A DNA stretch of 64,000 bases from Moniliella sp. 'wahieum' (taxonomy: Eukaryota; Basidiomycota; Moniliellomycetes; Moniliellales; Moniliellaceae). A program made the position numbers and the translations under genes. Location of the stretch: assembly GCA_003971905.1 (NCBI GenBank), contig RSEE01000057.1, positions 186,001 through 250,000 of the forward strand, in the 5' to 3' direction. Below the pieces are notes generated by a model. That model made no database searches and was not told the origin of the DNA. It saw nothing but the letters and a program-made list of their open reading frames with translations. Positions within the stretch are counted from its first letter, which is position 1. The number at the start of each line of letters is the position of its first letter. Below are positions 9,428 through 57,940 of the stretch, in pieces.

Positions 9428-9520
9428 ACGGTGACCGGTGACCACAAGTTGTGACTGAATAGATTGGCTTTGGTGACCGGTGACCGGTGACCCGGTGGCT
9501 CGGTGATTCGGTGACGCCAC
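9428..9520. repeat. 7-bp palindrome array, ACCGGTG units
   Basis: Two clusters of ACCGGT cores spaced seven bases apart (about 9430-9442 and 9472-9492), followed by degenerate units in the same style (CGGTGGCT, CGGTGATT). Confidence 0.75.
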
Positions 9521-9693
9521 GTGTGACACAGTGCGCTAACGCATGACGCGTGCGATTGCCCAGCTGGTTAATCCGCTTAGTTAAGCTATGTTACATGTTA
9601 AGCTTGAAGCCAGTTTGTTTCGTAGATGTACTTGGTTGTTGCCCGTTGTTGTTGGCTTAAGATTTACCAGCCAGAGCCCCAGTCTGAGGGTTG

Positions 9694-9746
9694 CTGGTTA
9701 CTAGTTACTAGTTACTGGTTACCGGTTATGCATTATGCATTATGAG
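9694..9746. repeat. 7-bp palindrome array with changing cores
   Basis: Six consecutive 7-bp units from 9700 to 9741. The cores change from ACTAGT (twice) through ACTGGT and ACCGGT to ATGCAT (twice), each followed by T, with no loss of register. This is the clearest case of register being kept while the core changes. Confidence 0.85.
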
Positions 9747-9957
9747 GCCTGGACCTGATCGATGATCGATGACCACCCAATCGAGGCTCGATACTTTTTC
9801 CCAGCCGCCACCGTACCTGTGCGCTTTCCCTCTCAGATCTCAACACTCTCACAACTCTCCGAACTCGGCCACCATGCACATCATGGATGCCGTGCATCAT
9901 ATATCCGCCCCCCCTTCGTCGCCATCATGCATATCAATGCATCAACAATGAATATAT

Positions 9958-10025
9958 TCAACGTTCAACGTTCAATGTTCGATCAACACGTCCAACACGT
10001 TCAACGTTCAACGTTCAACGCCACC
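9958..10025. repeat. 7-bp palindrome array, AACGTTC units
   Basis: Two runs of AACGTTC units separated by degenerate ACACGT-type units. A related short AACGTTC cluster lies at about 10135-10155. Confidence 0.8.
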
Positions 10026-10229
10026 GGAGTCGTGCAACTGGAATCGGCAACCATGCCACATGTAAAAAACTGGTGTAACATGTAACTGGCGTAACCGGCG
10101 TGTTAACCGCGTATAAAAAAAACGTCGACGTTTGAACGTTCAACGTTCAGTTCAACACCTTTAACAGCTTTACCACCTTCAACGTCAGCCGCGTCAACGC
10201 GTCTCAACCGCGCGCCAACCAACATCGGG

Positions 10230-10290
10230 CGGGTTGAACGTTAAACGTTAAACGTTAACACGTTTACATGTTACATGTTACACATGCATA
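10230..10290. repeat. 7-bp palindrome array, AACGTTA then ACATGTT units
   Basis: AACGTTA units at 10237, 10244 and 10251, one 8-bp unit, then ACATGTT units at 10266 and 10273. The core switches and the register is kept apart from one 1-bp slip. Confidence 0.8.
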
Positions 10291-10354
10291 AATCCCCAAA
10301 TCACACCTACAAAACGTCACAATCTCTCGGGTCTCGTACCTAAAAAAGCGCCTG

Positions 10355-10425
10355 CTATTCGCGTCCAGATCACATGTCACATGGATGCCATCATATGTCA
10401 CGCGCGTCACATGCATGTCACTTGC
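10355..10425. repeat. ACATGT/ATATGT/ATGCAT palindrome cluster
   Basis: CACATGTCACATG followed by GTCAC-flanked ATATGT, CGCGCG and ATGCAT cores. Mostly heptad-spaced, with 9-11 bp intervals near the end. Confidence 0.65.
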
Positions 10426-12008
10426 AATGCGCCCCGTTCTAGCAGCTCTCCAAGCTCCAAGCTCCCAGCTCCTGAAGAGGCGCTTGAAACGCCGTATGGA
10501 CGACATGCAGGCGGACCAAAGAATGATTACTGACGCGTGACGTCGGAGTACTGAGTACTACTGAGCGTATTTTATAAGTTCTGAGACGGCCTGATCGCTG
10601 TCCTGGCCAGACTCTTCTGCGGTACCGTCGATCACCCAGGTTTATCAATGATTGATCCAAAATTTGTGGAGGCGCTCGGTTTTTAGCGGGTACCATCTTC
10701 AAGCTTCAGTATAGCTACAGCACGGCTTCAACTTCAGTTTATTCAAGCTTCAGTACCTTCAGTACTCAGTTGAGTACTTACTACTTATTGGCACTCTCGT
10801 GTGCGCACCGCATGTCATAGATTGCCACATCGATTGCATGTTGGGTGGTGGCGAGCAACAGCGCGGTGGCCTGTGCCATCACATGCATCACACACGTGAC
10901 GTGCTTGTCCTGCGATCAGTGTGTCTGGTCAGTGATACCTGTAATCGATAATCCCGCCGGCGATGTGACGCGTATCCTGCAATGAGTAATGGTCGATGAT
11001 CGATCGATGATCTATGGTGCCTAGTGCCTGGGCAGGATGCATGGCCGAGGGGTCGATCGGAAACGCGTACGTCATAAGTGCCATGCATGATCTTTCGGCC
11101 TTAGGAGCTTTAGGCACGCTGCCCAGAATATTAAGTGCGACACACGAAAAGAAAGCGCTAATAAGCGCTACGCGCCAAGTGCTAATGCCAGTAGCACCAA
11201 GTTGTGGGAGAAAGTGGGGGGATGCAGTCAGGGAAGGCAGCCGGGAGAACAGAGGCGGAACAGATGGCTAGCATTAGGTTAGGACCCCAGTGGTCGAGCA
11301 GATCTCGAGTCCGGCATTATGCATTAGCGCTGGAACATCATGTAAACGCTTCTACTGACTTCGAAGTAGCCAGTGACTGTAGTGACTACCAACTTGCGAT
11401 CCAGGCAGTGACGTACAGTGAGCGATCATTGCCCGGCAGAACTGGCATATATACTGTGCATACCCGCATGTTTGCGCACGAGTACTGAATAGGAGGCCTG
11501 GGGGAGCTGAAGCTTGGAAGGTGTGGATCTCTTCAGGGCGGTTGTGATGTGGTCAGTGTGGCAGCCCTCAGGTACCCAGGTACCTCTTCTGTGGAGCAGA
11601 ACTTAGTACTTACCCCCACACACAAAGCCCTGCCAAGCCCTTGAGAGTGGAACTGCAGGGCCTATTCGGCTTATTGAGTTGTTTATCGAATGTACAATTG
11701 CCAATCTCGGCCGGCAGATGGTTGGGGGAGAGACATTTCGGAGGGAAGAAGATACTATAGCATCAAGTCCAAGGGGATGTATATTATTGTGCTTGTCCCA
11801 ACGTCTTTACAGTGCATTCATTATCATTGTTGACGTTGTGTGGAGAGAGCACGTGTGTGTACTAACAGCCTAACGAAGGAGGAGATACGTGAATTCTAAA
11901 CCGGTAGCCCCAATCGTCTTCAGTCCTTGACCAGTGACTACTACTTGGTGGGTGGTTAGTGACTATATTAGTCACTACTAATCACAATGTACATAATTAT
12001 ATCGTTGT

Positions 12009-12022
12009 GGGGGCTTCGCCCC
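12009..12022. repeat. GC hairpin, second copy
   Basis: GGGGGCTTCGCCCC in an A+T-richer setting; same hairpin as at 2693. Confidence 0.6.
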
Positions 12023-15000
12023 AACTCAGATTCGAGATGGGATATATGGCAAAGCAGTTGGTTACTTGGAAGTCTTCAGCAAAACCGATTATAATCCACC
12101 GTACTGGGTAGACCACCGCATTGGGGGCAACGCCGGTTGGTCAAAAATCGTGTATTACAGAGACCTATTAAGACGTTTTGTGAACAAATGATTTTTTGCC
12201 TGCGATAAAACCGAGCGATCCACCCCGTGAGACGATGTTTGGGATTTATAAGGAGCCGGCAGCCGGTGGACTTCAAGCTACAAAACAGTGGCCCTCAGCC
12301 TGAGCCTCAGGCTGAGGCCTCAGCCTCACCAGTTGATGGGCCGGTGGGAGATGCGATGGTCATACCCTCACATACACACACCCCTTCAAAACGCCGCCAC
12401 CAATGTTCAACATAGCATGCGGCTCAACGCTAGTCCCTGCATGACGTTGAAGCGCACGCAGCTCGACCCACATTCTAAAGCGTTCTTCAATGGGGACCCT
12501 GACCACGAGAAGAGATTTGCCTCTGCGGGGAGAGAGCCATGGACATGTATCATGCATTTCACACACCACGGTGGGGAGCGAGTCTCTGGGGTTGCCGTAG
12601 CACCGTATTTTCATCAATGATTAATGAGCGCTGAGCAGGCAATGCATGCCCTGTAATTGGGTCTATACATTCTGTGGCGACTTGTCACATGAATGTTACA
12701 CAGTATACGTCTCTAAGTTGTCTTAGGCGGACATATGAGATGAAGACCCCATTACTTTATGAGTCGGAGTCCGAGCAAGTAAAGCGGGGGTGGTAAGATA
12801 ATATCCGTCAGCTTCCCATCGATCACATACCAATGGCAACCAATAAAGCCACCAAGAGCCACCAATAGAGCAAAACCAATGGACATGGTAGAAGACCTAT
12901 TCTTTTGAATGCGGGTAAGTATATATGAGGAAAAAAGTGTATATAGTCATCAGGGCGAAGGAATCCGAGAATATATAGAGATAGAGGGATTTTTGTGTGG
13001 GATCCATTCTTCGGCGCACATTACCCACTTCCAGTGCCCGCCAGCGCTGCCAAGGGCTATTACATGGTCGATAAATCAGGACGGTGTGGAACGGGGGCGA
13101 GGGGGGAACAGTGGAAGGAGGAACGGTGTGGCCTAGAACATGCCGGGCCGTAGCCCCGGTGATCCTCTAGTAAAATCCATAAACCCATACCCGGATGCAT
13201 TTTGTCCATCCTCCCACGGATTACTATAGGTTGAACTTTGAGCGTCGACTCTTCTTCTACACTTTCCAGTCCTACTATAATGAGTGTTCAGTGTAAAGGT
13301 CGGGCGATGCTGTGAAATCAAGTACCGAGGGAAGCAAGCAAAAAAAATGCACTGGTAGGAAGGGAGAAACAGATCGGTGAAGAGCATTGAGATGGTATAC
13401 CTCATCATCTAAGAGGCCCTGAAGACACTCAGCCTGTTGCATTAGCATTTGCAGAGGAACTTGAACAAGGACCAAGAAACGTTGCGCCTATTATATATCT
13501 GCTTCTTATCCTCGGGTATACTAACTGCAGTTGTTCGTGCCAACCCAATTAAGACGATACCATTAAATGGAGTGGCCAGAGAAAAGGTCAGGCCCCCTGG
13601 CTCAGCGGCCATTCGCTTGTAAGCAGATATGGATAGCACGTGGATATACGAATGATTAATGAGCGTTGTATACGTGTTTGTTGAAAAGTGAACCATCTGC
13701 GATGATACAGCTCAGTAACCCTTTTCCAGTGTGGTCAAACTACTTCTTGTTGGCCGTTTTGGTGATATACAAGGATCCTTGCCTTGTCATAACCACCGCA
13801 AGAGGCAGAATGACCCTTAAGTGCGTTACTGGTACTTGGCGTTCTTGTAGCATTCCCTTTGCTCCAACCGTCGTATCAGCTCTTTCTCCTTCTGTTCCGC
13901 AGAAGCGTTGCAGTTTCCTTACTATTAACCTTTTGGGACGAACCAAGGTATGGACTCCCTGGTGTACCCGAACCTGATCAACCAGATATGCTCCTTTGAG
14001 TCCTATCATTCCTAGTCCATCCACCTCACCTTCCTTTGATGACGGATGGAGAAAGAGCTTGAGGGCCACTTCGTGGGTCCATCGCCCTCCACAGCCGATG
14101 CTCTTGCTTCCGTGTGCTCATTGTGGCAACCTAATTGGGGCCTCCAGATCGTGAACAAGCGACACCAGCCTACCGAACATACGTAGTTCACTCAACCGTG
14201 TCGGAAGCCTCCAAATCTACCTGCAAAGCAGGGTCAGTCTGCAGGAATTGGCCTCCAACTGTTCGAACCCATGTATGGGCAGTGTTCCCTCTCATACTCT
14301 TTTGTGTGAGCGGGATGGGGGCGCGGCAGGCATCCCCGCAGTTTCCAGCGCTGCAAGAACAACGGACAGAGACAACGCTGAAGCCCACGGTTGGGGGTTC
14401 CGGTTGAGCATATGCAAAACACATGCACGCGGGCGGGTAGCGACAGCACAAGCCGCAGAATTGCCACGGCGCCCACCGGATCGAAAGATTCCCCGCATTA
14501 GTGACCTCCGATGACACCTTCCGTGCCCAGTTTCGTCTTCAACCCCCAGTGATGCTACGCCCAACGTGCGCGGTCCATCTCGTCGGCCCACCACACCAGC
14601 CACCACCGACTTACTTCGTCTCACCACATAAATTTTTCACGAAACACAGTGGACCATATGGGCCGGGGAACCATCGCCGGCTATTACCCAAGAGAGACCC
14701 AAGCCGTGACGTATGAGAACGTAAATCAGCGGAGGCTGGCACAGTTATATCATAGGCTCCGCACGCGATGAAACGGAAAGGTTGAGGCTTTACATGTTAC
14801 ACTTTACGCGTTCAGGGAGCCATACACGTCATTCGTTCACAACCATCGCTCAGGGTGAGCACGATGATCGTGTGAGTGTGTGACTATGACAATAAGAAAT
14901 GGGATATGACATAGTAGGACATATGACTGTGTATAAGTTGTAAAAGGATCACACATCTAACGATGGGAAACTCAGTACTTATTGATCTACACCAGCATCA

Positions 15001-15391
15001 CCTTCTAGAATACGTGACTCGTCTATAGACCACCGGAAGGTCACGAGTCATAAAGATATAGGTGGAGAATCTCTGGGGAGAAGAAATAATATGACAATGC
15101 ATTGACGAATATGGTGGGGGTCCTTGAGGCTTGAGCCCCATCGCGGCGGCCTCATCCTCATCAACCTCATCATGCATCAGCGCCAAGCACATCCTCTGAT
15201 ACAATGAATGTAGGTCCCGAGAAAATGTGTGTGATCTCCATTAAGATCCTTCCTCTCCCTCCATCGAAGATCTCATTTGTCGGAAGATATACGTCTGTTA
15301 GTGTATTCACCCTGAGGAAAAGGATTTAGATCTTTAGATGAGATCAGAAGAAGTCTCACCGGCATACATCTGCACTCAGGGCCTCAGGGCC

Positions 15392-15425
15392 TGACATGTG
15401 ACATGTGACACCTGACAGGTGTATA
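15392..15425. repeat. ACATGTG palindrome array
   Basis: Two ACATGTG units in 7-bp register, followed by a degenerate ACACCTG unit and an ACAGGT unit. Confidence 0.7.
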
Positions 15426-15496
15426 TGAGACTGAGATCCCTGAGATCTGCTACTATGCAGGTGAAAGGGCGTCCATCTCACAGTACACGTCAATGA

Positions 15497-15530
15497 TCAA
15501 GCTTCAAGCTTCAAGCTTCAAGCTTCAAGG
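15497..15530. repeat. AAGCTTC array, four perfect units
   Basis: Four identical 7-bp AAGCTTC units from 15499 to 15526. HindIII-type palindromic core. Confidence 0.9.
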
Positions 15531-15821
15531 CCCAACTTAATATGTGGCCTGTTCGTCCATTCTATCTCACGGCATCACCTCAAGTTAGCAGTCTGGGAAA
15601 CGTCTCGAGTCTCGCGACCCCACAACAATATGATGTGAATAAATTGCTCCCGACGGAACAAAACCACCCCAAATGTACAGCCAGGAATATAGCGGTTCCT
15701 CCCCTTATTTTGGCGCGGCCCAAAAACAGTAGACCCCTTGCATAACGTTGCGGCTATCGTTGCCGGCTATACTACAACAGGTGTGAGGTCATTGTCAGAG
15801 ACTTCCAGATTGCGAGCAGCT

Positions 15822-15855
15822 GTGACATGTGACATATGACATGTGACTAGCGACT
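15822..15855. repeat. Mixed-core 7-bp palindrome array
   Basis: Units at 15825, 15832, 15839 and 15846 with cores ACATGT, ACATAT, ACATGT and ACTAGC, all ending in G. Register is kept while the core changes. Confidence 0.8.
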
Positions 15856-16630
15856 TTTCGTAGTTACAGCACACAGCTACTATACAGGTTCGGTATATTA
15901 ATAGAACGTACACACATCATGCATCATTATGTACATGTCGCGGAACAAAATGTCATATGTCGTCACATGCATCACGCCCGATTTTTGTTTTGTGCATTAT
16001 GTGACTGTATATCCCTGGGCCTTAGGATAAGTACTGTGTGCACATGTCACTGTCACATGTCACCCTCTTAAATCGAGAAGGAGAATGCTTTGGAGGTGCG
16101 CTTCAATCCACCATCCGGTTACGTCACGCACCATGGCCCCCACATTGTGCGTAGAGTCTCGATGTCATCTCCCGTTGGTTTATAGTAGCCTTCAGCTTGA
16201 GTATTGTAGCTCCTACGCATTAGAGGTGTACCATGTACACCGCCACATCATACCACACCTCACATGTATCCTACTCCCTCTATACGGGCTGTAGGAATAG
16301 ATCTCTCTTCTCATCAGGAGCCTTTTCAAGCTTTATACGGTTCTCGAATGAAGCTTAAGCTGAGAAGAGATAACCACTTTCACATAATGACCTCTCGATG
16401 GTGAGTTCAATCTCCGCTCCCGGCCGGTCGTCTCCCCTTTCTCGTTATCGCAACTCATCCTCTGATCCACAATATGATTCACGCCACTTGCTGCAAGGAG
16501 GATGCGATACAGAAGTATTGCGGAGCCATGGAACGGCAAAAAAGGACAACCAATGTCCTATTCCCTCACCTATTTCGCTCTCTCTCTTCTCTTCTTTCCT
16601 TCGCTGTCAGACAGTACAACATGCCAAATT

Positions 16631-16716
16631 TAAGCTTCAAGCTTGAGGTCAAGCCTCAGGGCCTCAGGCCTCAAGCTTCAAGCCTCAAGCCTCAAGCCTC
16701 AAGCTCAAGCCTTAAG
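16631..16716. repeat. AAGCTT / CCTCAAG array
   Basis: AAGCTTC and AAGCCTC units in 7-bp steps, interrupted by CCTCAGG-type units. Confidence 0.8.
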
Positions 16717-16929
16717 TACGTCATGCCATATAGCCGCCACACCTTTCCTACTGTTATCGATTTTGTACTGCTGCCACCCACACAGCGATCACGATGATCT
16801 GTTACACGTCACATGTCATGGCGTTTCAGATCTCCACATTCGACAGCAAAATTGCTACTATCCTAGTCACTAATCACTATAATCACTACTCACTATGCAG
16901 AGCCGCTAGTCACCTAGTCGCCAAGAGTC

Positions 16930-17070
16930 CTGAGCCTCAGGCTCAGGCCTCACATGCACATGTCACGCATGACATGTGACATCTACCTCGCACCTGTCTG
17001 GGTTGCCATATATATGGCACCAAATCATGATCTGCGCAAATGTCACATGTCACCATGTCACCTGCCATAT
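16930..17070. repeat. CCTGAGG and ACATGTC arrays
   Basis: CCTCAGG/GCTCAGG words, then ACATGT and ATGACATGTGAC words near 16950-16985, then ACATGTC units near 17040-17065. Confidence 0.65.
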
Positions 17071-18171
17071 TATACGACTCTCAGTCTATGTGGATTTACT
17101 AAGGATATTCACCTGGAAGGGTGTGCTACATACCTTCCATTCCCATCAAGTTTTACATGCAGCGTTATACGCATTACGCCTTACGCGTTACATGACGACA
17201 GACCGAACGCGTTTCACATCCAAAACCCAAGGAACACTGGCGTGCAATGCCGGGTGATGGTCTTCGTCGTCACCAGATGTCGATGAGGGAGCCTTGCTGA
17301 TGATGGTCATGTGGGGCAGAGCCTGACACAGCGGCCGAAATAGAGGTGGAATGTTAAGGGGAGGCAATAACGCCTGGATCATTGCGATGAGCAGAGGGGG
17401 TGTAGAAGATCAGAGAGCAAGCAGTTGATGGTCCGTATTGCATTGCACATGAGCAACAGAAAAATAAGGCTATAGAGGGAATATTCCTGCTTTCTGGCAG
17501 GGAAGGAATATTGGAAGGAATGACCCGTAAGGACCCGGGCTTGTTGGGCTACCGGCACCACTAACCAGTGTGGCACACAGAGGGCGAAGCGAGAGCTGGT
17601 CGAAGGCAATTCTTATGTCGAGAGTACCGAAAATGAAGGGAAGAAGGAAAGGGAAAAAGGAAAAGGAAAAGGAGGAGAAAGAATCCTCTCTCAGCGTGGT
17701 TTTTGGTTGACAAAGCGTTCCCAATAGATATATATACTCTCCCTCTCTGGTCTTCGATGGGCTGGCATGCTTGTGGCCTTTTACCGTGAATGAGGTGGGC
17801 CCCGGTGGGTGCGGCATCTCTTCCCCCGCGTTTGCTCCCAAGGGATCAATGCATCTTCTGTATAAAGGAATCGAGAGACCAACGATCGCTGTCGCTGTTG
17901 AACCAACTATTACAAAGAAAAAAAATGTAATGGGTCAAACCAAATTAGGGGGACGACGAGGTCATAAGGCAAACCAATAAGTGACACCAGGCAGGTACAA
18001 CCTGTTTCGCCAATCAAGTCCAAGTCCAAGAGCAAAGAGCAAAGAGCGAAGAGCAAAGAGCAAATGAAGCGAATGCCATGGGTGCACGATTCACGTGATC
18101 GTACGGAAGAGAAAGGGTACAGAGACAGAGCAAGGTAGGAGGAGGTACCTAGAATGCACCCCGCGAGGGGT

Positions 18172-21156: not shown

Positions 21157-21521
21157 GGCGGGGGGGGGGGGGAGACGGGGGTGGAGGTGGTGGTGGTGGG
21201 CGGCAGCTGTGGGCAAAAGTGGGCCGGGGGGGCGGGCGAAGCGGCGGGCGGCACTGGTGCTGTGCGGGCGCGGCGGCTGTGGGCTGCTCAGCTGAGGGCA
21301 GCGTATCAGTGCGCCCAGTGGGCACCACGACGCACTCACACAGCGAGCACCTCGTTTGGGCTTCAGGCCAGGCCGCACTAGTCACTCGCAGCTGTCGTTT
21401 CAACCTTTCAGCCGGCAGCCACCGCCCTATTCAAGTTTCAGCCAGCGCACGTGACCGCATGACCCCCCCTTGCCTTCTTCCCTCCTGCCCCCTCTTCGTC
21501 CCAGCTTCGCCCAGCCACCAC
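21157..21521. promoter_or_regulatory. Shared divergent promoter region, SIP5 / DEAD-box-like gene
   Basis: 365 bases between two divergent start codons. It holds a poly-G tract at about 21163-21172 next to the SIP5 ATG and no other gene, so both promoters must lie here or overlap it. Specific factor sites were not identified. Confidence 0.5.
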
Positions 21522-28439: not shown

Positions 28440-30250
28440 GGTGTCGGCCCGGTCGAAAGTGGTGGAGAGGGAGTCGAGTCGATCGCGGCCGTTCTACCGG
28501 CGTAAAGGCAGGAGGAAGAGGCAAAGATGGGAGGAAAGAATATACACAAACGGAGCTCCCGCTCACCCAACACGGTTGGTTATAACAGGCAGCCATCTTC
28601 CACCTGGCAGCGGCGTTAATAAAAAAAACGGACTCCTAAGAGGACCGTGACAGACTCTATCGATATAAACCGTTCGGACTAGAATCGCCGCACGGCGGCA
28701 GTGTTGCGCGGCGTCAATGCGTCACGCGTCAAACGCCAAACTTTCGTCGGGCACAAGCGGAGGTGGAGCAGTTCGACTCGGCCACTCCTCTGTTTTTTGG
28801 TTCGTGACAAACTTGCCACGGCGGTTAATTTGGACCACTTCTGCGGTGCTTTCGCCTTCAACTCGGGTGCTACCAGCCCGTCGAGGCGCGTCCATCTCAT
28901 CGTTGCTTTCGTCGTCGCATTGTCGACGTCGTCAAGCTCACCTGGACAAGCAGGCATGGAAGTGTGGGCGCTGGGAGTCATTCGTCTCCGCTGGCGAGCG
29001 GAGATGTGCACTGGAGGCGCGGAGAAGACAGCCAGCGGACTTGTTCAGCCCAATAGCCTCCAGCCTGCAAACACCGCCCTGCTTGTGTCTTTTCCGAAGA
29101 AACAGGGGGGCGGACAAGCGTATGCGATGCGCGCGGCAGCCACGTCTGTCCTCCACACCCGCGCCTTCCGGGCGGACCCGACGTCTGCCCTGTGCCCCGG
29201 CAAGAGGTTCTAAGCCGGGGTTATTAGCAACAGCCTGGAGCAGGCTGTGGAGCAGCCGGTGGGCGCGTCGGGCGGGACGGGCGGGAGATTCCGGACCAGG
29301 ATGTCTGGAATCGTTGATCATCGATCGATTAGTGATCCTGTGTAACCCTAAGGTTCCGCCCTCCCCAACGCCGCTACTATTAGCCGAAGAAGCCTCAGGC
29401 ACAGGGCTCTCTTGGGCTCAAAACTCACTGCCTCCACTGCCTCAACGCGTCAACACTGTGCCCTGCTGTGCCGCGTGTTGCGCGGTTGGCAACCCGGACC
29501 AACCCGAGATGGGCGACTGACGTGCGTGGCACGTGGCGCGTGACGCGTGATGCGATTTCAACCGACGTTGCACCGGCGGGGTTAAAGTGACCAGCAGCGC
29601 TCAAAGCCAGGGCTAGTGAGCTAGGGAGATTAGGGAGCTAGTGAGATCTGAGATCTGGAAGTCACTAGTCACTAGTCACTAGTCATGCCTTAACGCGTTT
29701 GACGTAAAAGATGGCTTAGATCTCGAGAGGCCAGATAGGCCAATCGGAGATGGAAAGGATCCTCCAAGTGCTTGTGGATTTTACATGGTGTCTCCATTAA
29801 CGATTGTTGGTAGGTACGCATCGCGAACCCACACCTCCCACAGGAAGCTGTGTGCGACCCCGTCTCTCTCTCATCCTGAATCTAGCCGTTGCCCTGTAAT
29901 CCATGTAATTGGTCAAGAAGAGTAATGTGGAGTGAGTAACAATCAAGGGGAGAAAAATGCTATGCATCGCCAAGTGAGAGCGAGCCTAGTGGAGCCAAAG
30001 CGATTTGCACGTCCCTGCCCAAGTTTTGCAAATGCTACGACGGATACAGACGTAGAGAGACAAACTTGGAGAGAGATCATTAGGGTCGTACTGCATGACT
30101 GCCTCCCCGAAGCAAAGAATAAAAAAATGGGGAGAGCCAAAAAGAAAAATATGGGGAGGCGAACCATCCGGAACAGAGACAAACTGTGGGGGGGGGTCGA
30201 GGCGGCCTTGCTCCGCACCGCTAACGAGAAACAGATGAACAGAGGGGCTG
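28440..30250. other. Intergenic with palindrome repeats
   Basis: About 1.8 kb without a recognised gene. A minus-strand frame of 110 codons at 28679-29011 and overlapping plus frames are not recognised and were not called. Repeats include a CACGTG/ACGCGTG cluster at about 29520-29552, an ATCGAT cluster near 29315-29335 and an ACTAGTC array at 29661-29687. The last 300 bases should include the phospholipase D 3' end. Confidence 0.5.
29661..29687. repeat. ACTAGTC array, three perfect units
   Basis: ACTAGTC at 29664, 29671 and 29678, followed by the start of an ATG-type unit. SpeI-type palindromic core at 7-bp spacing. Confidence 0.9.
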
Positions 30251-38623: not shown

Positions 38624-38696
38624 TGGCCGCCGGGGACAGCTGGAGTGGCAATGGCCGGGGATAGCTGGAGTGACAATGGCCGGGGACAGCTGGAGT
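38624..38696. repeat. 25-bp tandem repeat, three units
   Basis: GGCCGGGGACAGCTGGAGTG plus five bases, repeated with period 25 (GGGG at 38632, 38657 and 38682). Unit 2 has GATAGC for GACAGC. Confidence 0.85.
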
Positions 38697-40360: not shown

Positions 40361-40393
40361 GGTGACTAGTGACTAGTGACTAGTGACTAGTGG
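40361..40393. repeat. ACTAGTG array, four perfect units
   Basis: ACTAGTG at 40365, 40372, 40379 and 40386, preceded by a related GGTGACTGGC unit. Confidence 0.9.
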
Positions 40394-42959: not shown

Positions 42960-44068
42960 GCTCTACCCCTGACCAAGGCGCAACGCTGACTCCTATGCCC
43001 ACCTCGCATCTCGTTCTGCTCTCCTATCTGCTCTCGGCCATCTTCTCTCCAAGTCTCCAAACGCTGGAAACGACACTGGACATTTTTTTGCTGCTATCCA
43101 TTTATCCATTATCCACCCCCATCACCCCTCTGTATCCACCCAAAGCCTACACCAGGAGTCGCCATTCGCTTCTCCGCCTTTTTGCCCGCTTGCTGATGCG
43201 GTGTTGCACAGGGGCGCGTGCACTGCATCTTTCTCGTTCATTCGTTTCCTCCCTTGTCGCCTCTGCTGGCTAACATGTAGCCAGCACCAGAGGCGGACCA
43301 GCATGCAATCCATCCACATACCTTGGCATTCCGTCTGGTCATCTGCAGAGTGCACTTAGGCTGGAGCAGGGCAGAGCCAGGGCCGTATTGCGTTTCCTGA
43401 AAGAGCAAGAACATTCGCTAGCCTTCGTAGCTCAGGGATAGTGATGGTTTGTATAAAGTCCTCCACAGGCAGAGTACTATAACGATGATGCAGATGATGG
43501 ATGCGTCTTCGTCTTGCCCTATCTGTCGAAGATGCGATCCCACATCCCACATCTCACATCTCACATGGCACGTCAGAGAGGGGCCGTGAACACTGGCGAT
43601 GAGACGGGACGCTGGTGCTCGGGAGACAGCGTGCCTGCCTCGGGAGAGTCCGTCTGGGTTGGGGCAGCAAGTGCGGCGTGGTGAGGGTGGTGAGGCGGCC
43701 ATTGAATGCTCGCTGGCCGATGGGTAGCGGAGCGCTGGTGGGGCGGATGTGACGCATGTGACGTCGATCGAGTCATGCAGCTGCATTCAGGGACTAGGGA
43801 GTGACTCGACCACGTCGCTGCGTTTTGAAATGTTCTGCGCAAGAAAGCCATGCGATGAGGCGGCGCTGGCTGGGAACCGGCCGCCAGTAGCTAGCAACTA
43901 GCAGGACGGGCCACCGCTGCCAAGGCCAGGCTGTACGCTGCAAGCTGCAAGCGGGACCGTACAGACGCAGCCACAGGTGCGTCCGTGGGCGCACCACTAC
44001 TTATGCCGCCCTCCTCCGCCCTGCTGCGCCCGCCATCGTCCGCGCGCTTCCTGGCCGTGTGAGCTGCG
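42960..44068. other. Intergenic, no gene seen
   Basis: 1.1 kb. Pyrimidine-rich at the start (likely 3' UTR of the protease), with short ATCTCACATC repeats near 43540-43570. A tRNA-like A-box at about 43427-43445 lacks a B box and was rejected. Confidence 0.5.
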
Positions 44069-47000: not shown

Positions 47001-47243
47001 TCTGGCCGATCGGTTAGGGCTGGAGGAGCAAACGAGGAAGACCCCGACCCTGCCACGCGCCATACGATCGACGAAGCTCGTCGCGTGCTGGCCGCTGTTG
47101 ATGGTGGAACCGCTACGGCTGAGCAGGCTGCTGACCCACTCTACCGACGCGGCCGAGTGTATGTGGTGCACCAAGGTCGGATCAAGTACTTGGCAGGCGG
47201 CGTCGATGCGTATGTACGCCAAGTGGAGAAGACACTGGCTTAA
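44069..47243 (+). CDS. ABCF-family ATPase with duplicated N-terminal domain
   Basis: Soluble twin-ATPase of the ABCF class (ribosome- or RNA-linked in other fungi; exact role unknown). NBD1: YVMYGRNGTGKSTLLKSIAD (Walker A), YANLSGGWKARAALA (signature), DILLLDEPTNYLDLPAVLWL (Walker B), VVVVSHDRAF. A basic linker follows (KRAKASHDDKRMKQIKMKQH). NBD2: IALVGQNGQGKSTLVKLIMG, PLASLSGGQKVRVGLAAV, LLVLDEATQHLDSDSVRALG, VLLVSHDRAAV. A GT-AG intron at 44966-45057 joins ASRE to LDLKDVN. Before it lie two copies of a domain of about 75 residues, each ending ARPIL-DAG-GKR. The start at 44069 is the first ATG of copy 1. Frame breaks near 44205, 44700 and 47020; the true end is VEKTLA at 47243. About 1,030 residues. 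Confidence 0.85.
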
Positions 47244-47632
47244 CGCGGCTGGGGAGGAAGCGGTCTCCCGCCGAGCCGAGGGGAATGGTCTGTGTGTTCA
47301 GTAGTGGGCTATTGAATCTCCAATTCATCCTCTTTTCCTGATCATAAACATGGGTTTCGCATCCCCCAGAGCAGCCCCATCTGCGTGCAAGGCAGCTTGG
47401 GGCTTGGGAGCGGCAGCCAGCATAGGCGCAACAGCACATGACGGAAGCACACCGGCACCTTGTACGTTCTCTCCCTCCGCTGCCTAGCTGAGCAGTGCGG
47501 CCACTGGAACCTCAGCCAGCCATGGTGCAAGGACTCTGAGTTAAGTTGTAGAGGAACAAGCGTTTGGTTTCGACCGATCTCCCTTTTGCTATGGAACCCT
47601 GACAACTCTAATATGGGGGACGAGGAGGACCA

Positions 47633-47669
47633 CCGGGCCTACGGCCCGGTCGGCTGGGGCTTCGCCCCA
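47633..47669. repeat. Two adjacent GC hairpins
   Basis: CCGGGCCTACGGCCCGG followed six bases later by CTGGGGCTTCGCCCCAG. The second matches the hairpins at 2693 and 12009; an imperfect copy of the first is at about 13143-13160. Confidence 0.65.
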
Positions 47670-47814
47670 GCTTGGTGCTGCGTCGCCACCTTAGCCACCG
47701 TTCCCCCGGGCCACCATTCCACGCTGGAACCCTTCCATGCTGGAAAGACGGAATAATATCACCGATGCTTGCTGGCAGTGGGTGGCTGGGAACGTGGCAC
47801 GGGGCAGGCTGATG

Positions 47815-48065
47815 TAAAAGTGCACGGTGGATCAATTTTGCGTATGTACCAGGGACGCACTCAAGAACCGTTTTTCCCCCTGGTTTTGACGACGCGAGGA
47901 TACTACGGCACCAAGACGGCGGGCAAGTTGTTTGCGCATTGGAAGGAGTTGGCTACTAAGTCTCAGTTGAAATGGTTCCTCGCTCGTATGTCAACCACGT
48001 TCCCTCCGTGTCCACACGCGCTTCCTAGGGTACGGGACCGGATGGCGAGAGCCGGAGGGTCCTGA
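47815..48065 (+). mobile_element. Relic of a dispersed repeat (copy 1)
   Basis: An open stretch reads QGRTQEPFFPLVLTTRGYYG, then LKWFLARMSTTF. A second, frame-broken copy at about 58905-59100 reads HGRTQEPFF, ATKA and LWRWFIAQMSATL at matching spacing. The similarity on DNA level is patchy but collinear. I do not recognise the protein; a decayed transposable-element gene is the simplest reading. Confidence 0.4.
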
Positions 48066-48675
48066 TATCCTGGCAATCCCCCTGGTTCCTTGACCTAGTT
48101 AGTGGCGCTTCCAACAACCCCCGCAAGATGAACGGTTCGGTTTAGACTAGCGTGCCCCTGTCCCGCCTTAAGCTCTGTCAATGGAATGCACACAACATAG
48201 AGATCTGTGGAAGTATGCAGTAAACGCGTGACATTCACAGTTACGGTTTACCAGAATGGTATTCGAGGCGAAGCTCACTCCTGCCCCCTCCCACAGCCCC
48301 CATCTACTCATGGCAGCGCTGCATCAACAATGGAAGAGTACAGACCCCCCAAGCTCGTAGGGGCGACCGAGACGAACGCCAATGCGCATGGGGAAAGAAA
48401 AACATGTGGGGGTATCGGCCCACAGGAAGCGAGGACAGAATGGGACAGAATGGAAGGTGTGTGCGAGTGCGAGAATCACGAGGCCCAATCAAGGCTAGGC
48501 TGGGCATGCAGAGAGGCGTCGATCAAAAAAGGACAACCAAGAGAACAGTCCAAAACAAAAGGGAGAAACAAGTGTATGTACGTGGAAGGGAACCCCGTAT
48601 TCAAGGAAACAGAGGGGAGGGGGGGGGGGCGCATTTGATCAACCTAATGCGAAGGTGCGGCCTGATTGCGCTAGT

Positions 48676-51039: not shown

Positions 51040-52210
51040 GGCGGAGAATGCGCCACAGCCGGCGCGGCAAGGAGACCGATAGGCGCGCAGCGCACACCCA
51101 CAGAGAGCAGAGCGATACGCGATGCGCGCGGAGGTCGACTTGGTGCGGGCTAAGCCTCTGCGCTGCGACAGGGATGAGGCAAGAAAAGCAAAGGCAGCAA
51201 TGCCGATGGCGGAGGTGGTGGAGGGCAAGATGCGAGCATGTCGTGGAATTGAAAGCTGTCAGCCTGTCATGGCAGTCAGCCGGCCAGTACTAGTCAGTGA
51301 CTCCTATTAAAAAAGCGGCGCAGCCGCAGCGTACGTTTTGTTTATAGTCACACTCCTATGTAGTCACGCTAGTCACGGGGCCTCCGCACTTTGGTTCGCA
51401 AGTTCCTTTGGGCAGCACCACCACGCGCCCATGAATAGTGACTCCTCTGAGAGAGTATTGGGGACAGCGAACACACGCAACCACCCAATCAAACCTCCTA
51501 TTCTTTCCGATGAAAGGGTGTGCGTCCATCATTAATCAGAAGCTGTCCTCTCTATGGTGTGTGATGTGCACGTCACGTGTGTGGGGCCCCGCACCAAGTT
51601 TGGATCGAGACAACAATCGTCGATAATCGATAACCCGCGATTGCGGAAGCTCGGGATTTCTTCTCTCTCGACTTCGCACTCGGCACCCCCTCAACCACGG
51701 AAGCGACAGAACAAAAGCGCATCCTTTGTCCATCATCTATGCGTGTAGACTGCGGTCCTCTCCGGCTCCCAGGCGGTAGACCAGGTTCACCTCGGTTCCA
51801 TCGGCTTCCACGCTGCGGGTATCGCGCCAGCGTGAGACACTGCCCCTGTTCCCTCCGTGGCATGATCTCTCCTGTGTGCCTCACCACTGGCCCTGTGTCT
51901 AGGCCGGCCTCCTATATAGATACCTCTGCAAATCCCTCACCTTCTCATCTTTCTGTCCAACAGGCACCCTGGGTCCATTAAAACAATGCGGTCCCCGCGG
52001 TACTAAAAGGCATCTAGAAGTTACGCGGCAGAGCCACATAGCATACTGTTGATTCCAAAAACCCTGATGAGATCGAGAAGCACATTTTTATTGCCAAGTA
52101 TCTATTCGAGAGGGAAATCACTTTGACATGCTCATGAGCTTACCCCCTTCGAATGGGAGGATACGCGGCTGTCCACTCGCACGTTTAATGCATGTCCATG
52201 AGCCAAAAAA
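51040..52210. other. Intergenic upstream of the poly-Q gene
   Basis: No gene seen. Contains a small GC hairpin at about 51311-51330 (GCGGCGCAGCCGC). Confidence 0.45.
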
Positions 52211-52296
52211 TGCTTCAAAGGGGAATCGAACCCCTGTCATATCGACGCAACACTTCGTGATGGCAACGATATAGTATACCACTAACCCATTGAAGC
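52211..52296 (-). tRNA. tRNA-Gly (GCC) with 15-nt intron
   Basis: The minus-strand cloverleaf has a 7-bp acceptor stem GCTTCAA/TTGAAGC, D-arm TGGGTTAGTGGTA, anticodon stem TATCG/CGATA with loop TTGCCAT (anticodon GCC, as in yeast tRNA-Gly), a T-arm AGGGG-TTCGATT-CCCCT and discriminator A. A 15-nt intron sits after position 37. A T6 Pol III terminator follows at 52205-52210. Confidence 0.92.
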
Positions 52297-53007
52297 TTAT
52301 ATAAACGGTGACACTACAGTTTTTCACCACTAATGTGCGCATCGTCTTTCCTTCCTCTTTTCCTCCTGCACCATGGGAGAGCATGGCGATTGAAGACGCC
52401 AGTCCAGTGAGAGGAAAGCCAAGTCCAGCTGACCTGGCAGCCCATCTCTCTCGTACAGACCTTAAAGTAACGGTCAACGCCTCAGCGTTGATTTCGCCCA
52501 TACCCGTTGCCCTGCGATTATACCGCAGTTATCGGGTAACCCAACTGCACCATTGTTCTCTTCGTTCTTCCAGCTGTCCCATACTATCATTTTAGAGAGT
52601 CTTCCGCCCAACAGACAACCCTTCCCTGTGAGGTCATGATGCACAGCCGGTGATGGACGTGCATGCCCATATTTGAATGCCCTAATAGCACCACGGTCAG
52701 TTTTCCTCTACAGCTTCTGAAAAGGTGAGAACTAAGCTGCTGTTTGCTGTGGGCCGTTTTAACAAGCGAGACCAGGCAATGTGCGGTATGGATGAGATGG
52801 TATCGGAACAAAACGGGCAAGTGGCACGGGGGTAGGAGGGGGAGGTGCCAAGGTTACTGAAAAGGGACACGGAATAGGCAGTGAGAATCAGCCCAATGAG
52901 AGAAACACGCCCGAGAGTGGGCTAGATTGGTCAGGCAAGCATGCCAGCGCAGCAGCAGGAAGGAAGCTGGCTTAGGCGCTTAGGATGCAGAGTGCAGGGC
53001 TCAGGGC
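52297..53007. other. Intergenic, no gene seen
   Basis: About 700 bases between the tRNA and the 3' end of the KIN4-like gene; nothing recognised. Confidence 0.45.
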
Positions 53008-55781
53008 TCAAGAGACTGGATCTGCCGAGCCCAGTTCGCACCGAACATAAAACACTTGCTGGGCCGACGCAAACGCGTCCTCCTGACCGGCCAGCAATCG
53101 AAGATCGACGCTCCACAAGCCGGGGATGCGCCCTACGCGGGTCACCTCCACTGAAAAGACCACCTTTTCCGTCGGGGACGACGTATACGGGTCTCGCCAC
53201 CGGCACCCCACACATGCGGTGCGGGCACATGCGTCTCTGCGCCCATATCGGCCAGCGCTTTGGTCACGCGGTCCACGATTTGAGACAAGGAGAGGGAAGT
53301 GAGAGCCTCTTCGCGCAACTCGCCTTCGTGGGCGCGTAGTTCTTCACTTAACGTTGCTGTGGCGGCTAACGTGCCCGGACGGGTGTGGGCAACGACCGGG
53401 CCCGGTGCACTGGGGTATGTCCGTGTTCCTGTTTCTTTCCCAGCATGCGCAGAAACTTGCGTCCGGACGATTTGGTGGATCCGACCCAGCGCGCACTACC
53501 GCTTGCCTTGGTACTAGCTTTGGCACTGCCACGACCACTGTTCGCATCTGGAGAAAGCAAATTGGGACTTTCGGCACCAGGACGGTGGTGGAAAAGGGAG
53601 AAGATCTTGTCCAAATTCGATCGGGGTTTGGCACGTACCCCATCACCGTTTTTTGCCCAGACGTGGCGGAGGTAGGGGTAGGCAAGGCCGTCGCCCGCCG
53701 CGCTCGTGTACGCTCAGGCTGCTCCGGTTCACTGAACCGCATCTTGCTGGAGGTTGGTCCTGGCGTCGTAACCACGATCGCATTGTTCGACCGAAAGTTG
53801 GGCATGAGAGTCACGGCACGACGGTTGGGGGAGGTGATGACCGACTGGGGCGGGGGGGCAGGGGCGGGGGCGGGGGCGTCTTGACCCGAATCTGTTTGCG
53901 GGACTTGGCCGGGGGTGGAGACGGAAACTGAGGTGTGTTGGGGCGAGGTCGTGATCGAAGGTTGAGATTGGGGAGGTGTGGAGATCGAAGAGCGGCGTAC
54001 CGGGGACGTGATAATCGAAACGTTACGTTGGCGGGGCGGAGCGGTGTTCGCACCTGAGGCTTTGGGGGGAGAGGGAATGGGATCTGAGGGGTCGGGGAGG
54101 CTAGCGGTCAGACCCGTCTGAGGCGTTGGTGTGGGTTCACATGCGGGCTGGGAGCGGGAAGAGGAAGCCAGAGGGGCACGGTCGGGAATGTCGTTGGGGG
54201 TGGTACGCAGTTCGTCAGAGCGCGCGGCAGTGGTGGTAGGGACCGAAGTCCCAACCGAGGCACTGGAGGTACGTGTGTGTGTCACGGTGGGGCTGGGTAG
54301 TTATCGCAGGCGCCGTCGAATCCGGGGTCACGCTTGCTAGTGCCCCGGGGCCCGCGGGCGATGGAACAGAGGGTGTGAAACGAAAGAAGCAGATGACTTC
54401 TGCTCCTCAGCGCCGCCGGGCGGCGAGGTAGGTGGGACCAGTCCAGATTCCTGCCGCACCAAGGTAGCGCCGATGGATTCAGAAGGAGGAGAAGAAGGGA
54501 GTGGCGAAGAGGGTGCAGGGACGATCGGGGCACGCGACTGGGCTTGGCGCTTGACCTGCTGAGCCAAGGCGGCGTGCTCGAGCTCAGGCACGCCAAACCG
54601 GAAGAGCTCCGTGTAGGGCTCCAACCACGGGTGGGAACGGACCTGGTCCAACGTCATCCGCTTAGCAGGGTTGGGCGTAAGCATACCGAGAAGCAACGCC
54701 CGCGGCGCCGCGGGCACGTGGTCGGCAAAACTGAGGGGTGTATTTGCGATGTAGCGGTAGAGCTGGTGGATATTGCTGCTTTCGGGATTGGTAGGGTCGT
54801 CGTCGAAGGGGAGAAATCCCGAGAGCATGGCGTACAGGATCACGCCGCCGGACCACACGTCGACCAGAGGGCCATGGTAGGGCTGATCAGACAGGACGAG
54901 TTCAGGGGCAGCATAGCAGGGAGAGCCGCATGATGTGGCCATCAGGCTGCCTTGTCCTAGGAGTCCAGCAAAGCCAAAGTCGGTGATGAGGATGTTGCGA
55001 TGGCGGTCGAGCAGCACATTTTCCAGTTTGAGATCGCGGTGTACAACTCCCTTGGCATGCATGTACCACATTGCTGAAACGAGCTGGGCAAAGATGCGGC
55101 GCGCCTCACGCTCGCGCAAGAACTGATGGGCGAGAATGTAATCGAACAGCTCACCGCCCGATGCATACTCCAGCACGATTCCCATCCAGCGATCGCTGGT
55201 GATAATCTCAAAAAGAGCGACAATGTTGGGGTGATGGAGGCGGCGGAGGAGACTAGTTTCCTTGCGCACGCGCGCCCATTTGGTCTCTTCGAGCTCCGAT
55301 TTGCCCGCATCATCGTGGTCCGTCTCCCCGGGCACACGTTTGATGAGCTTGATAGCAACCTCGTCGCCTTGAGGGGTGCGGAGACCAAGCTTAACTTTGC
55401 CAAACTGGCCCTCACCCAGAGTGTGGAGCAGGACATAGGAGCCAAACTGGACGTAGGGGCGGGTGAGCTTGGTGGCTGGAGTGGGCTGGGTGGGCTGGGG
55501 GGGAAGGTGTTGGAGGGGGCCGAGGGAGGGGCAGTGGCCGGTGCTGGGGCAGGGGCTGGGGCAGGGGACGTAAGCGTCGGCGTTGCCCAAACAGAGCTGC
55601 TCAAGCCTTGGACGTTGTGGGGTTGGGCGGTGGCACGGCGACTGGGCGCGTGGGCAAGGATGCTGGCAGGCGTGGCGCTGGTGCGGGTGGCGGCCAGGGG
55701 CAGAGCAGTGGGTGATGGAGTGGGCATTGCCGTTGCGCCTCGCTGGGCTCGCCGGCTGTTGCCCCTCATCGTGCTGGACAT
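53008..55781 (-). CDS. KIN4-like Ser/Thr kinase with C-terminal KA1 domain
   Basis: CAMKL-type kinase. The start at 55781 gives MSSTMRGNSRRAQRGATAM and a Pro/Ala-rich N-terminus. The kinase domain begins PYVQFGSYVLLHTLGEGQFG, with KVKLGL, VAIKLIKR, NIVALFEII, EYASGGELFDYILAHQF, VVHRDLKLENVLLD, ITDFGFAG, TSCGSPCYAAPELVL, VDVWSGGVILYAMLSGFLPF and HPWLEPY. A long Ser/Pro linker follows (SIITSPVRRSSISTPPQ, RKFLRMLGKK). The end, LSQIVDRVTKALADMGAETH...FSVEVTRVGRIPGLWSV, looks like a KA1 membrane/autoinhibitory domain and stops at 53008. KIN4/FRK1 are the closest yeast types by the GEGQFGKVKLG start; other KA1 kinases are possible. Frame breaks near 55450, 54310, 53600, 53370 and 53210. About 925 residues. 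Confidence 0.8.
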
Positions 55782-55802
55782 GGCGATGGGGGGAGAATAG
55801 GA

Positions 55803-55853
55803 GGGCGGAGGAGGAGGAAGAGGAGCAGGAGGAGCAGGAGGAGCAAGAGGAGC

Positions 55854-55887
<34 letters not shown>

Positions 55888-55905
55888 AGAGCAAGAACAG
55901 GAGAT
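55803..55905. repeat. (GGAGCA)n / (GAGGAA)n microsatellite
   Basis: Purine-rich hexamer repeat 20-120 bases upstream of the KIN4-like start codon; probably 5' leader or promoter of that gene. Confidence 0.8.
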
Positions 55906-56595
55906 GGAGGGCCGGCGGAAACGGAAAGAAGAGTGATGGCTAGGTGACCGAGAAGAAAGACCCTGGAAGGAGCCAGTCTGTCCCTGGCCAGCCCAGCGCG
56001 TGCGCTGCTCGCCGCGGGCGGAGCAGGGGGGCAGTCGCAGGCGCTGCGGCCAGGGTGTTGTACACTGGGTGAGACGCATGTGCAAGAGAGCTGCTCGCTG
56101 CTGGGAAGCCGGCGGGCACTGTGGCGCGTTCATGTACAACAACGCCATCCTCCTCTGCGCACCGTCACCGGTCAGATCCCACACCGTCCAGATCTCAGAC
56201 CAGTCAGACCCACGGGCGGCAGGCACGGCGCCAGTGCCGCGGGCCAGCACGCACCCACCGACTCCCACCAGGGCGCACCCGAACGCTGCCCCCATGCCGG
56301 GGACCATGGGTGTATCCACCTGGGTCGGGGGCAGCCGCAGCACAGCGCAGGTGCCGCCTGTCCAGACGCTGCGCACAGTGCTGCTCCGTCGCCGGGCAAA
56401 GCCGAAGCCATATCACGTGACCTATCACCACGCATCGTAGGTATTGCACGCTGCGCTGCCTTGCACCCTGTTACACCCCATCTGCTCGGCGCGCGCAGGC
56501 TGTCCAGGCTGCTCTGGCACACTGGTCTCCTTATTTCCTGAAAAGCTCAGATGGCGCTTCCCTTTCCAGGCCCAGGCCCGAGGGCGATTGGGCTT

Positions 56596-56622
56596 GAAGA
56601 GCTTGAAGCTTGAAGCTTGAGG
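56596..56622. repeat. AAGCTTG palindrome array
   Basis: GAGCTTG, AAGCTTG and AAGCTTG units in 7-bp steps. Confidence 0.8.
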
Positions 56623-57087
56623 GATGCTGCCATCGAGCCATCCCGTGCCATGTGACATCATATGTGATAGGTCTCTGCATCACCAGCCCCTCACCCCTCT
56701 TACCCACCCAGACACTCCCCCTCCACGGATGCACGCGCTACGGGCCACGTAACGCGTAAGGCCATACTGGTTTATAACACTGCAACAATACCAAGGTCTG
56801 AAGATTACTCTCGCCCTTGTAGGGCGTCAGCGCATCAGCCTGCCAACAGCATCTAATTTTTGTCCCTCTGTCTTATACGTGTGTTTTGCCATGAATGATA
56901 TGAATGCAAAACAGAGCTCTATTACGCGTTACGCTCAAAAAGGGCTCAGGCGCTCCTACTGAGCTGTCAAAGCCTGGTCGACTGGAAGCGTGAGCGCTTG
57001 GGCATCAATTATCGATCATCGATCAAGCCCAGATCTCCCGCTTCAAGATGAAGCGCTTGGCGTCTCTAAGAATACTCCGTTACTAGG

Positions 57088-57355
57088 GGACGTTGAGCAC
57101 TGAGTACGTGTTGAGTTGACTGAGTCTCAGTACTGGGGGGGTGTTGAATATACTGAGTACTATGAGTACTGTGAGTACTGAGTATTGAGTTTGAGTACTT
57201 TGAGTAATTTGAGTACTGATGCACGATGCACTGATGTGTTGTACTGAAGTACTGATGAGTAACTGAGTCAGTACTGAGTCTCAGTACTCATCGACATCGA
57301 TCATCAACTGTATGCATCAACACAGTGCCATCAGTACATCAGTATACTTAAAAGT
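57088..57355. repeat. AGTACT palindrome cluster
   Basis: More than ten GAGTACT/CAGTACT words in 270 bases, several at 7-, 8- or 10-bp intervals, with ATCGAT and ATGCAT cores near 57295-57320. Confidence 0.8.
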
Positions 57356-57612
57356 ACGTAAGTGTGCTTCAGCCTTCCTTCAGCCGCTGAAGGCTGGCTA
57401 AAGGCTTGTACGGACGGGCACGGGCTCCCGGGCGATTCCGCCCGGGTTCCGTTTCCCGTCCGGCAGGTTCCGCTCTTCCTTCTCTTCATCCATCTGTCTA
57501 CACCTCTGTCTGTCTGTCTGCGCTGCACCCGCACAAGGCTCAGCCTGAGTGCTTCAAGCTTCAATGATCGGCCATTGATTGCATTATGGCCACAAACAAA
57601 CGTTGAGATATG

Positions 57613-57663
57613 TTCAACGTTGAAGCTTGAAGCTTGAAGCTTGAAGTTGTTCAACGTTCAACC
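57613..57663. repeat. Composite AACGTT / AAGCTTG array
   Basis: An AACGTTG unit runs straight into three AAGCTTG units in 7-bp register, then degenerate units, then AACGTTC. The core switches within one array. Confidence 0.85.
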
Positions 57664-57742
57664 TGGGAACTGGTAACTAGTAACTGGCAAGCTCATATGC
57701 AACGTTCTCAGCGTTTACAATGGCATGCTTCCCTGCTCTCGC

Positions 57743-57780
57743 TTCTCAACTCTCAACTCTCAACTCTCAACACTCTCAAC
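57743..57780. repeat. (TCTCAAC)n array
   Basis: Four 7-bp TCTCAAC units and one degenerate unit. Same period as the palindrome arrays but without a palindromic core. Confidence 0.8.
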
Positions 57781-57795
57781 CACATGCTCCGCATC

Positions 57796-57940
57796 ACATG
57801 TCACATGTATCACAGTTCACACGTCCCATGTCACGGCGTCACTAGGTCACATTGGGCGGTCTCCGATCTCACATGTCACACAGGAAAGTAGAACCCCTCC
57901 ATGCATGACATTTGTGACATGCATGTGACATGTGACGACA
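57796..57940. repeat. ACATGT arrays
   Basis: CACATGTCACATGT near 57797-57812 and ACATGCATGTGACATGTGAC near 57917-57936, with intervening CATG words. Confidence 0.75.

Follow-up and report, generated by a model that had tools for sequence, protein, structure and literature searches.

Period-7 palindromes in the window and across the genome

The window, a stretch of 64,000 nucleotides of Moniliella sp. 'wahieum' (positions 186001-250000 of contig C57, in an assembly of 69.5 Mb and 223 contigs), carries short palindromes of the form A-N4-T that lie exactly 7 bp apart, and these repeats are the subject of this study. Protein models fit a fungal and not a green algal genome, with no match to PF00504 (light-harvesting proteins) and at least 100 Zn2Cys6 matches. 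A first-pass annotation had described them as arrays between genes. Alongside the window we analyzed a random 200-kb sample made up of twenty 10-kb stretches from 20 contigs, with the position of each stretch chosen blind to its content; window and sample were pooled (264 kb) where stated. Thirty-five pairs of A-N4-T palindromes were found exactly 7 bp apart in the window. All other distances up to 30 bp had 0-10 pairs each, except 14 bp, which had 18 and corresponds to two units. Palindromes ending in C, G and T gave 1, 3 and 0 pairs at 7 bp. There were 53 exact period-7 runs of at least 14 bp, of which 35 were a palindrome plus one base, all A-N4-T. These palindromic runs span positions 1879 to 58262, and palindromic units at periods 6 and 8 to 15 were seen 0 or 1 time each.

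The random sample gave the same picture. It held 102 period-7 runs, 44 of them palindromic and 41 of these A-N4-T, while a single order-1 Markov resample gave 9 runs, none of which was palindromic. Non-palindromic period-7 runs also exceeded the resample (58 vs 9), and other periods were likewise in excess; these were taken for ordinary repeats. The 14-mer ACATGTGACATGTG has 903 copies genome-wide, compared to 0 for its reversed control. The spacing peak and its recurrence across the genome, both proposed in the first-pass annotation, were thus borne out. Its term "arrays" applies less well since most chains are single units (167/205), and with respect to its placement of the repeats between genes, judged only by open reading frames (ORFs) of at least 200 aa, 33 of the 251 pooled cases described below fall inside one.

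The conserved unit and the source of its core

The conserved unit was found to be TnA-(4-bp palindrome)-TnA with an identical base n on both sides, that is, T-n-A every 7 bp. In the pooled 264 kb, the N4 of same-n TnA-N4-TnA was palindromic in 251/460 cases (55%), compared to 48/256 (19%) when the two n differed and 3-9% in the 15 other XnY classes. All 16 palindromic tetramers were represented as cores and the flanks of isolated cases carried at most 0.15 bit per position. Therefore, there is no core motif, and the fixed parts are the T, the A and the symmetry.

The core instead follows from its neighbors. Among 167 isolated cases, the second half of the core equaled the dinucleotide just before the first TnA in 82, and the first half equaled the dinucleotide just after the second TnA in 62, with about 10 expected for each. 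A joint table of how far the runs extend on either side had its top counts at (2,0) and (0,2), with 29 and 22 cases. These matches show that the core is copied from a neighbor and lead to a simple rule: with l and r as two arbitrary bases and ' as the reverse complement, a site l-TnA-r becomes either l-TnA-l'l-TnA-r or l-TnA-rr'-TnA-r, in each case 7 bp longer.

A grammar for arrays

If either TnA of a product can be hit again under the same rule, the only arrays permitted are l TnA (l'l TnA)^i (rr' TnA)^j r. This grammar accounts for constant spacers with changing cores and allows at most two core types per original site. It was obeyed exactly by 164 of the 205 chains in the window and sample, including 130 of the 167 single-core chains (chance about 1 in 8) and 34 of the 38 longer ones (two cores, 27/31; three, 6/6; four, 1/1). 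Eight of the 10 mixed-core chains conformed, each with its left core taken from the left flank and its right core from the right flank. The earlier observation that different cores obey one rule, and that plain tandem duplication is insufficient to explain them, was therefore upheld. Of the four second hits possible, three leave the core unchanged, so retargeting predicts same-core and mixed doublets at 3:1; 36 and 10 were seen.

Specificity, density, and product classes

Perfect 12-mers under the rule numbered 268 at TnA and 1-17 at each of nine other centers (AnT, 5; CnG, 7; GnC, 10). Versions with one mismatch numbered 365 at TnA and 61 to 196 at the other centers, so the cases are of mixed age. 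The random 200 kb contained 125 strict cases, while 20 Markov controls averaged 0.8 and never exceeded 2; the sample count extrapolates to about 43,000 footprints genome-wide. The window held 87 strict cases, twice the density of the random sample, and is therefore unfit for such an extrapolation. Strict cases per TNA were five-fold rarer inside ORFs of at least 200 aa than outside (0.0065 vs 0.0326), as expected for insertions that shift the reading frame.

Products were scored with isolated informative pairs only, and ambiguous fits were split among classes. The two main products scored 48.5 and 37.5, compared to 8.7 and 7.9 after shuffling. Products in which both 7-bp copies are complete, with 1-2 palindromic bases between them, scored 3.2-5.8 in each of five classes (about 20 in sum), with shuffled scores of 0.01-0.17 each. 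At gaps of 7 to 9, every product class scored below 1. Counting arrays too, we found 3 cases of the class in which each side has two added bases, and at most 6 of each class with at least three added bases, compared to 126 and 143 for the main two. The target copies around the joint are thus 7 bp long, either complete or up to 2 nt short at the joint. Together, these classes fix the duplication at 7 bp and show that mostly no more than 2 palindromic bases are added.

Filled and empty sites

Copies of a 640-bp repeat were compared for sites with and without the extra 7 bp. The 22 copies came from 21 stretches, which take in 22 of 47 listed matches, and from one further stretch (L019). Insertion records of 6, 7, 8 and 9 bp numbered 2, 13, 0 and 2, and those of 1 to 3 bp together numbered 113. 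Of 11 distinct 7-bp insertions, 6 fit the rule exactly and 2 had one mismatch at a place where another copy fit exactly. One of the 9-bp records encloses an exact case of the rule. A young dispersed repeat lies in the window at 47620-48191; it has 57 matches listed in the genome, and most of the longer ones are 94-97% identical.

Filled and empty alleles were also found between haplotypes. Contigs C40 and C7 align over 18 kb as if allelic (L065/L068/L070 of C40 vs L066/L069/L071 of C7), with 7.2% substitutions over 17,401 aligned columns, poor stretches included, and 4.4% in the central 6 kb. Therefore, at least part of the 69.5-Mb assembly seems to be present as two haplotypes. Four footprints were private to one of the two contigs: three of them add 7 bp and the fourth adds 8 bp (AGTGAGG to AGTGAGCTAGTGAGG). 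One of the 7-bp gains and the 8-bp gain appear directly in the alignment. The other two are merged or split with adjacent changes, and one of these further requires a substitution and a nearby 2-bp difference. Since the haplotypes differ in their footprints, the process is either recent or still running. A 5-bp duplication of GTGAC at a TGA site, outside the 7-bp rule, is also private to one haplotype (L066 reversed, near alignment column 4498).

Transposon excision as the probable source

We consider it likely that the arrays are accumulated excision footprints of a cut-and-paste DNA transposon with the target nnTnAnn and a 7-bp duplication. The products, the grammar, the requirement for TnA and the filled and empty alleles observed above would be produced as follows. 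Insertion of the element would duplicate l-TnA-r on either side of it. Upon excision, both flanking ends would be sealed into flush hairpins. A host nuclease would then open each hairpin up to 2 nt past its tip, leaving self-complementary 3' tails of 4 nt, rr' on the left end and l'l on the right end. Trimming of one tail and joining of the other across would yield l TnA [4-bp palindrome] TnA r, which is 7 bp longer than the original site. Less frequently, both 7-bp copies would be kept, separated by 1-2 palindromic bases, so that the site lengthens by 8-9 bp. Both TnAs would be open to further hits, so that arrays lengthen while n stays constant and at most two core types arise per original site.

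The transposon, the hairpins and the joining of overhangs in this scheme are deduced from the products. Opening 2 nt past the tip, together with joining of a single tail, would give exactly the four bases between TnAs that define the main class, and the even palindromes imply that the hairpins would be flush. The scars would be the record of an enzyme that was not itself seen, and they have the form left by hairpin-type transposon excision. If this is correct, a plain sequence rule counts and dates tens of thousands of past excisions, even with no element in view, and the biochemistry becomes legible from the genome: a 7-nt stagger, a TNA target, flush hairpins, a 2-nt opening and single-tail joining. 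It would also mean that puzzling short palindromic repeats can be repair scars and not regulatory code, and that footprints differing between haplotypes alter the spacing of non-coding DNA.

Several observations weigh against excision as the source. First, the random sample held 58 cases, and the window 29, of non-palindromic N4 with the same period-7 flank. Minor product classes showed background at control centers (1-2 at CnG and 1-3 at GnC in some classes), and +6-bp products were in excess at TnA and at control centers alike, so they were uninformative and set aside. The grammar was missed by 41 of the 205 chains, most of which we take for decay and chance. With about 205 chains at 9,826 TnA, hits falling independently on an average TnA would yield several-fold fewer doublets than the 46 observed; this excess could be due to uneven exposure of sites, a preference for palindromic sites or slippage adding same-core arrays. 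In the 640-bp repeat, 3 of the 11 distinct 7-bp insertions were off the rule, one of which is readable as an 8-bp product with a 1-bp loss. A second, younger repeat (18 copies, 2.9% divergence) showed no 7-bp indel, which fits its youth and lends no support.

The element itself was not seen either. The approximately 350 kb examined, a small part of the genome, yielded no convincing element that had both inverted ends and a 7-bp duplication of the form nnTnAnn. Models for hAT (PF05699) and hAT-RNaseH (PF14372) gave 0 matches, but they also gave 0 in control genomes, and DUF659 was not among the models. The KDZ and Plavaka transposase models likewise gave 0 matches here and in control genomes, and the MULE and DDE_4 transposase models gave 0 matches. 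We reason that a few dozen mobile copies could produce all the scars and yet fall outside the sequence examined.

Several candidates were rejected. Two 7-bp duplications were judged to be chance: L009:4635-7157 spans ORFs that by eye resemble an ordinary cellular gene, and L018:1277-2277 ends within a repeat that extends beyond it. Three zf-BED matches (E 0.0025 to 0.012) were by eye unlike a transposase. An insert of about 226 bp at L042:246-470 belongs to another repeat family, also present in L018, L011 and L017, and its borders read as a 6-bp direct repeat, ACTGCG. A shorter duplication was considered as well. A 3-bp target-site duplication (TNA, as in PIF/Harbinger and CACTA) plus two bases of each terminal inverted repeat was rejected because the core tracks the neighboring bases; a search for terminal inverted repeats adjoining same-n TnA gave 0 matches.

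Two other stretches were noted in the same sequence. L027:6189-7791 is a 1.6-kb stretch with inverted ends GGCGCCTTGGCCTA and contains a 239-bp repeat, which L013 shares at 94.6% identity. At L020:2693-3181, the 7-bp direct repeat TTGTGCA borders a 475-bp stretch whose near-inverted ends are ACAGAGTAAACT and ACACAGTAATCT; the direct repeat is not nnTnAnn, and the structure may be due to chance.

Alternative explanations

One alternative is a transposase-like nuclease, either free-standing or domesticated, that makes cuts at TnA staggered by 7 nt, produces hairpin ends or recruits them, and scars the site with no prior insertion. The failure to see either element or transposase, despite some 43,000 extrapolated scars, favors such an enzyme, as does a flush-hairpin geometry unlike that of Ac/Ds. 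However, insertion and subsequent excision normally leave 7 extra bp and retain both TnA copies, one hairpin-forming cut alone would leave the 7 bp unduplicated, and the few dozen copies that would suffice could have escaped the search. We therefore regard it as possible but doubtful. In the same doubtful case, an endogenous and possibly domesticated transposase would be a standing mutator that opens TnA sites with no mobile element, and its scars would be a major source of non-coding haplotype variation.

Template switching, or quasi-palindrome correction at replication forks, would also create palindromes at a joint. Fold-back synthesis would complement n, though, and n is repeated directly, which speaks against fold-back for the main class. 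Among cases with unequal n, the core was palindromic in 18/104 when the two n were complementary, no higher than the 30/152 for other unequal n. The CnG, GnC and AnT centers were also inert, with perfect 12-mers at a small fraction of the TnA count. Template switching is, therefore, a very unlikely source of these repeats.

Replication slippage or microsatellite expansion of 7-mers draws on the commonness of same-core doublets (36/46), so some arrays may have grown by slippage, and on the excess of non-palindromic period-7 runs over the resample. In that same resample, the palindromic runs were absent (44 vs 0). Moreover, mixed arrays draw their cores from both outer flanks (8/10) and single units predominate. 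Microsatellites or tandem duplications should use any unit, with no rule for palindrome or center, and this was not the pattern found. The palindrome-dependent slippage suggested in the first-pass annotation is not supported, since the T and A around the center base are required and the process makes the palindrome but needs none beforehand. We consider slippage highly improbable as the general cause.

Functional arrays, that is, sites for a dyad-binding protein family maintained by selection (the other cause put forward earlier), would suit the location mostly outside long ORFs, but they are scarcely credible given that every palindromic tetramer occurs (16/16), the bases beside TnA dictate the core, the flanks beyond the unit are nearly signal-free and sites are present or absent between haplotypes.

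Comparison with known systems

Excision through hairpins is an established model for hAT elements (PMC5873905; PMC1978519). Ac/Ds footprints in Candida carry deletions and palindromic additions centered on the complement of the base beside the element (PMC5873905), and the same hairpin route has been invoked for Ds footprints in Arabidopsis (PMC1978519). The scars in Moniliella resemble those of Ac/Ds in yeast, Candida and plants, where joints with short palindromic P-nucleotide additions or with deletions come from hairpin ends and end joining (PMC5873905; PMC1978519). In contrast, Ac/Ds has an 8-bp duplication and odd palindromes, while here the duplication is 7 bp, the palindromes l'l and rr' are even and mostly no more than 2 bases are added. 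The hairpins of Ac/Ds are offset by one base (PMC5873905) and the present ones would be flush, a further point against the excision reading. Neither the 8-bp duplication nor the one-base offset of 8-bp-type hAT elements was found. The scale also differs, with tens of thousands of footprints genome-wide here by extrapolation.

The nearest described group that we encountered is hAT7, DNA transposons of rust fungi with 7-bp target-site duplications (PMC12730594). It shares with our case a 7-bp duplication in a fungus, and hAT excision proceeds via hairpins with palindromic footprints; it differs in that no hAT transposase match was obtained here, with models that gave none in control genomes either, and the flush hairpins are unlike those of Ac/Ds. 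Active insertion and excision of hAT elements have been reported in the mushroom Marasmius oreades (PMC9674265). The TcBuster target, nnnTAnnn (PMC3499496), likewise has a symmetric T..A center in an otherwise free target, but it is 8 bp with TA and not 7 bp with TNA. Our literature search, which did not reach many subscription papers or any bioRxiv preprints and is weak to that extent, found no account of 7-bp footprints at TNA on a genome-wide scale, nor any in which such arrays are read as footprints.

The sealed ends proposed for Moniliella would also have a counterpart outside hAT elements. In V(D)J recombination, the flush hairpins made by RAG at coding joints are opened about 2 nt past the tip and yield P nucleotides, the same kind as in the scars here. 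Transposition by RAG and Transib gives 5-bp duplications. A 5-bp duplication would predict both spacer types here, and it is disfavored because the spacer was the reverse complement of the first two bases in 142 of 187 cases and of the last two in 17.

Putative footprints and arrays in the window

The footprints and arrays located in the window are listed in Table 1.

Table 1. Putative footprints and arrays mapped in the window (window positions; l and r as in the grammar)
Feature	Position	Strand	Remarks
TGA-CCGG-TGA-CCGG-TGA array	9472..9492	.	Uniform core; period-7 run; events at 9474 and 9481
TTA CTAG TTA CTAG TTA CTGG TTA CCGG TTA TGCA TTA TGCA TTA array	9698..9744	.	Mixed cores; portion from 9719 onward fits grammar with l=GG, r=TG
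TCA-ACGT array	9957..9975	.	Two cores; period-7 run; outer flanks break grammar (one of the misses)
TCA-ACGT array	9997..10020	.	24-base period-7 run
TAA-ACGT array	10237..10258	.	Period-7 run
TTA-CATG array	10264..10282	.	Period-7 run
AA TGA TTAA TGA GCGC TGA GC array	12616..12636	.	Mixed cores; left and right cores from own flanks
TCA-AGCT array	15497..15529	.	Four cores; rr' type (r=AG); period-7 run and grammar
CC TCA GGCC TCA AGCT TCA AG array	16662..16682	.	Mixed cores; grammar
TCA-CTAG array	29660..29685	.	Three cores; l'l type (l=AG); period-7 run
TGA-CTAG array	40362..40392	.	Period-7 run
GATGATG-CA-GATGATG full footprint	43484..43499	.	Entire 7-bp duplication and 2 palindromic bases from left end
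TGTGACG-CA-TGTGACG full footprint	43748..43763	.	2 palindromic bases from right end, or one from each
AGTCACG-CT-AGTCACG full footprint	51362..51377	.	2 palindromic bases from right end, or one from each
TTTGAGT-AC-TTTGAGT full footprint	57190..57205	.	2 palindromic bases from left end; alternative joint reading fits too
TGA-AGCT array	57620..57646	.	Three cores; period-7 run
TCA-CATG single footprint	57794..57808	.	Period-7 run
TGA-CATG single footprint	57922..57936	.	Period-7 run; close to right edge of the mapped region

Period-7 repeats with no palindromic cores also occur in the window, at 16649-16716 (TCAAGCC), 57744-57775 (TCTCAAC) and 18028-18064 (AAGAGCA). The TCAAGCC repeat is interspersed with palindromic units and may consist of decayed footprints.

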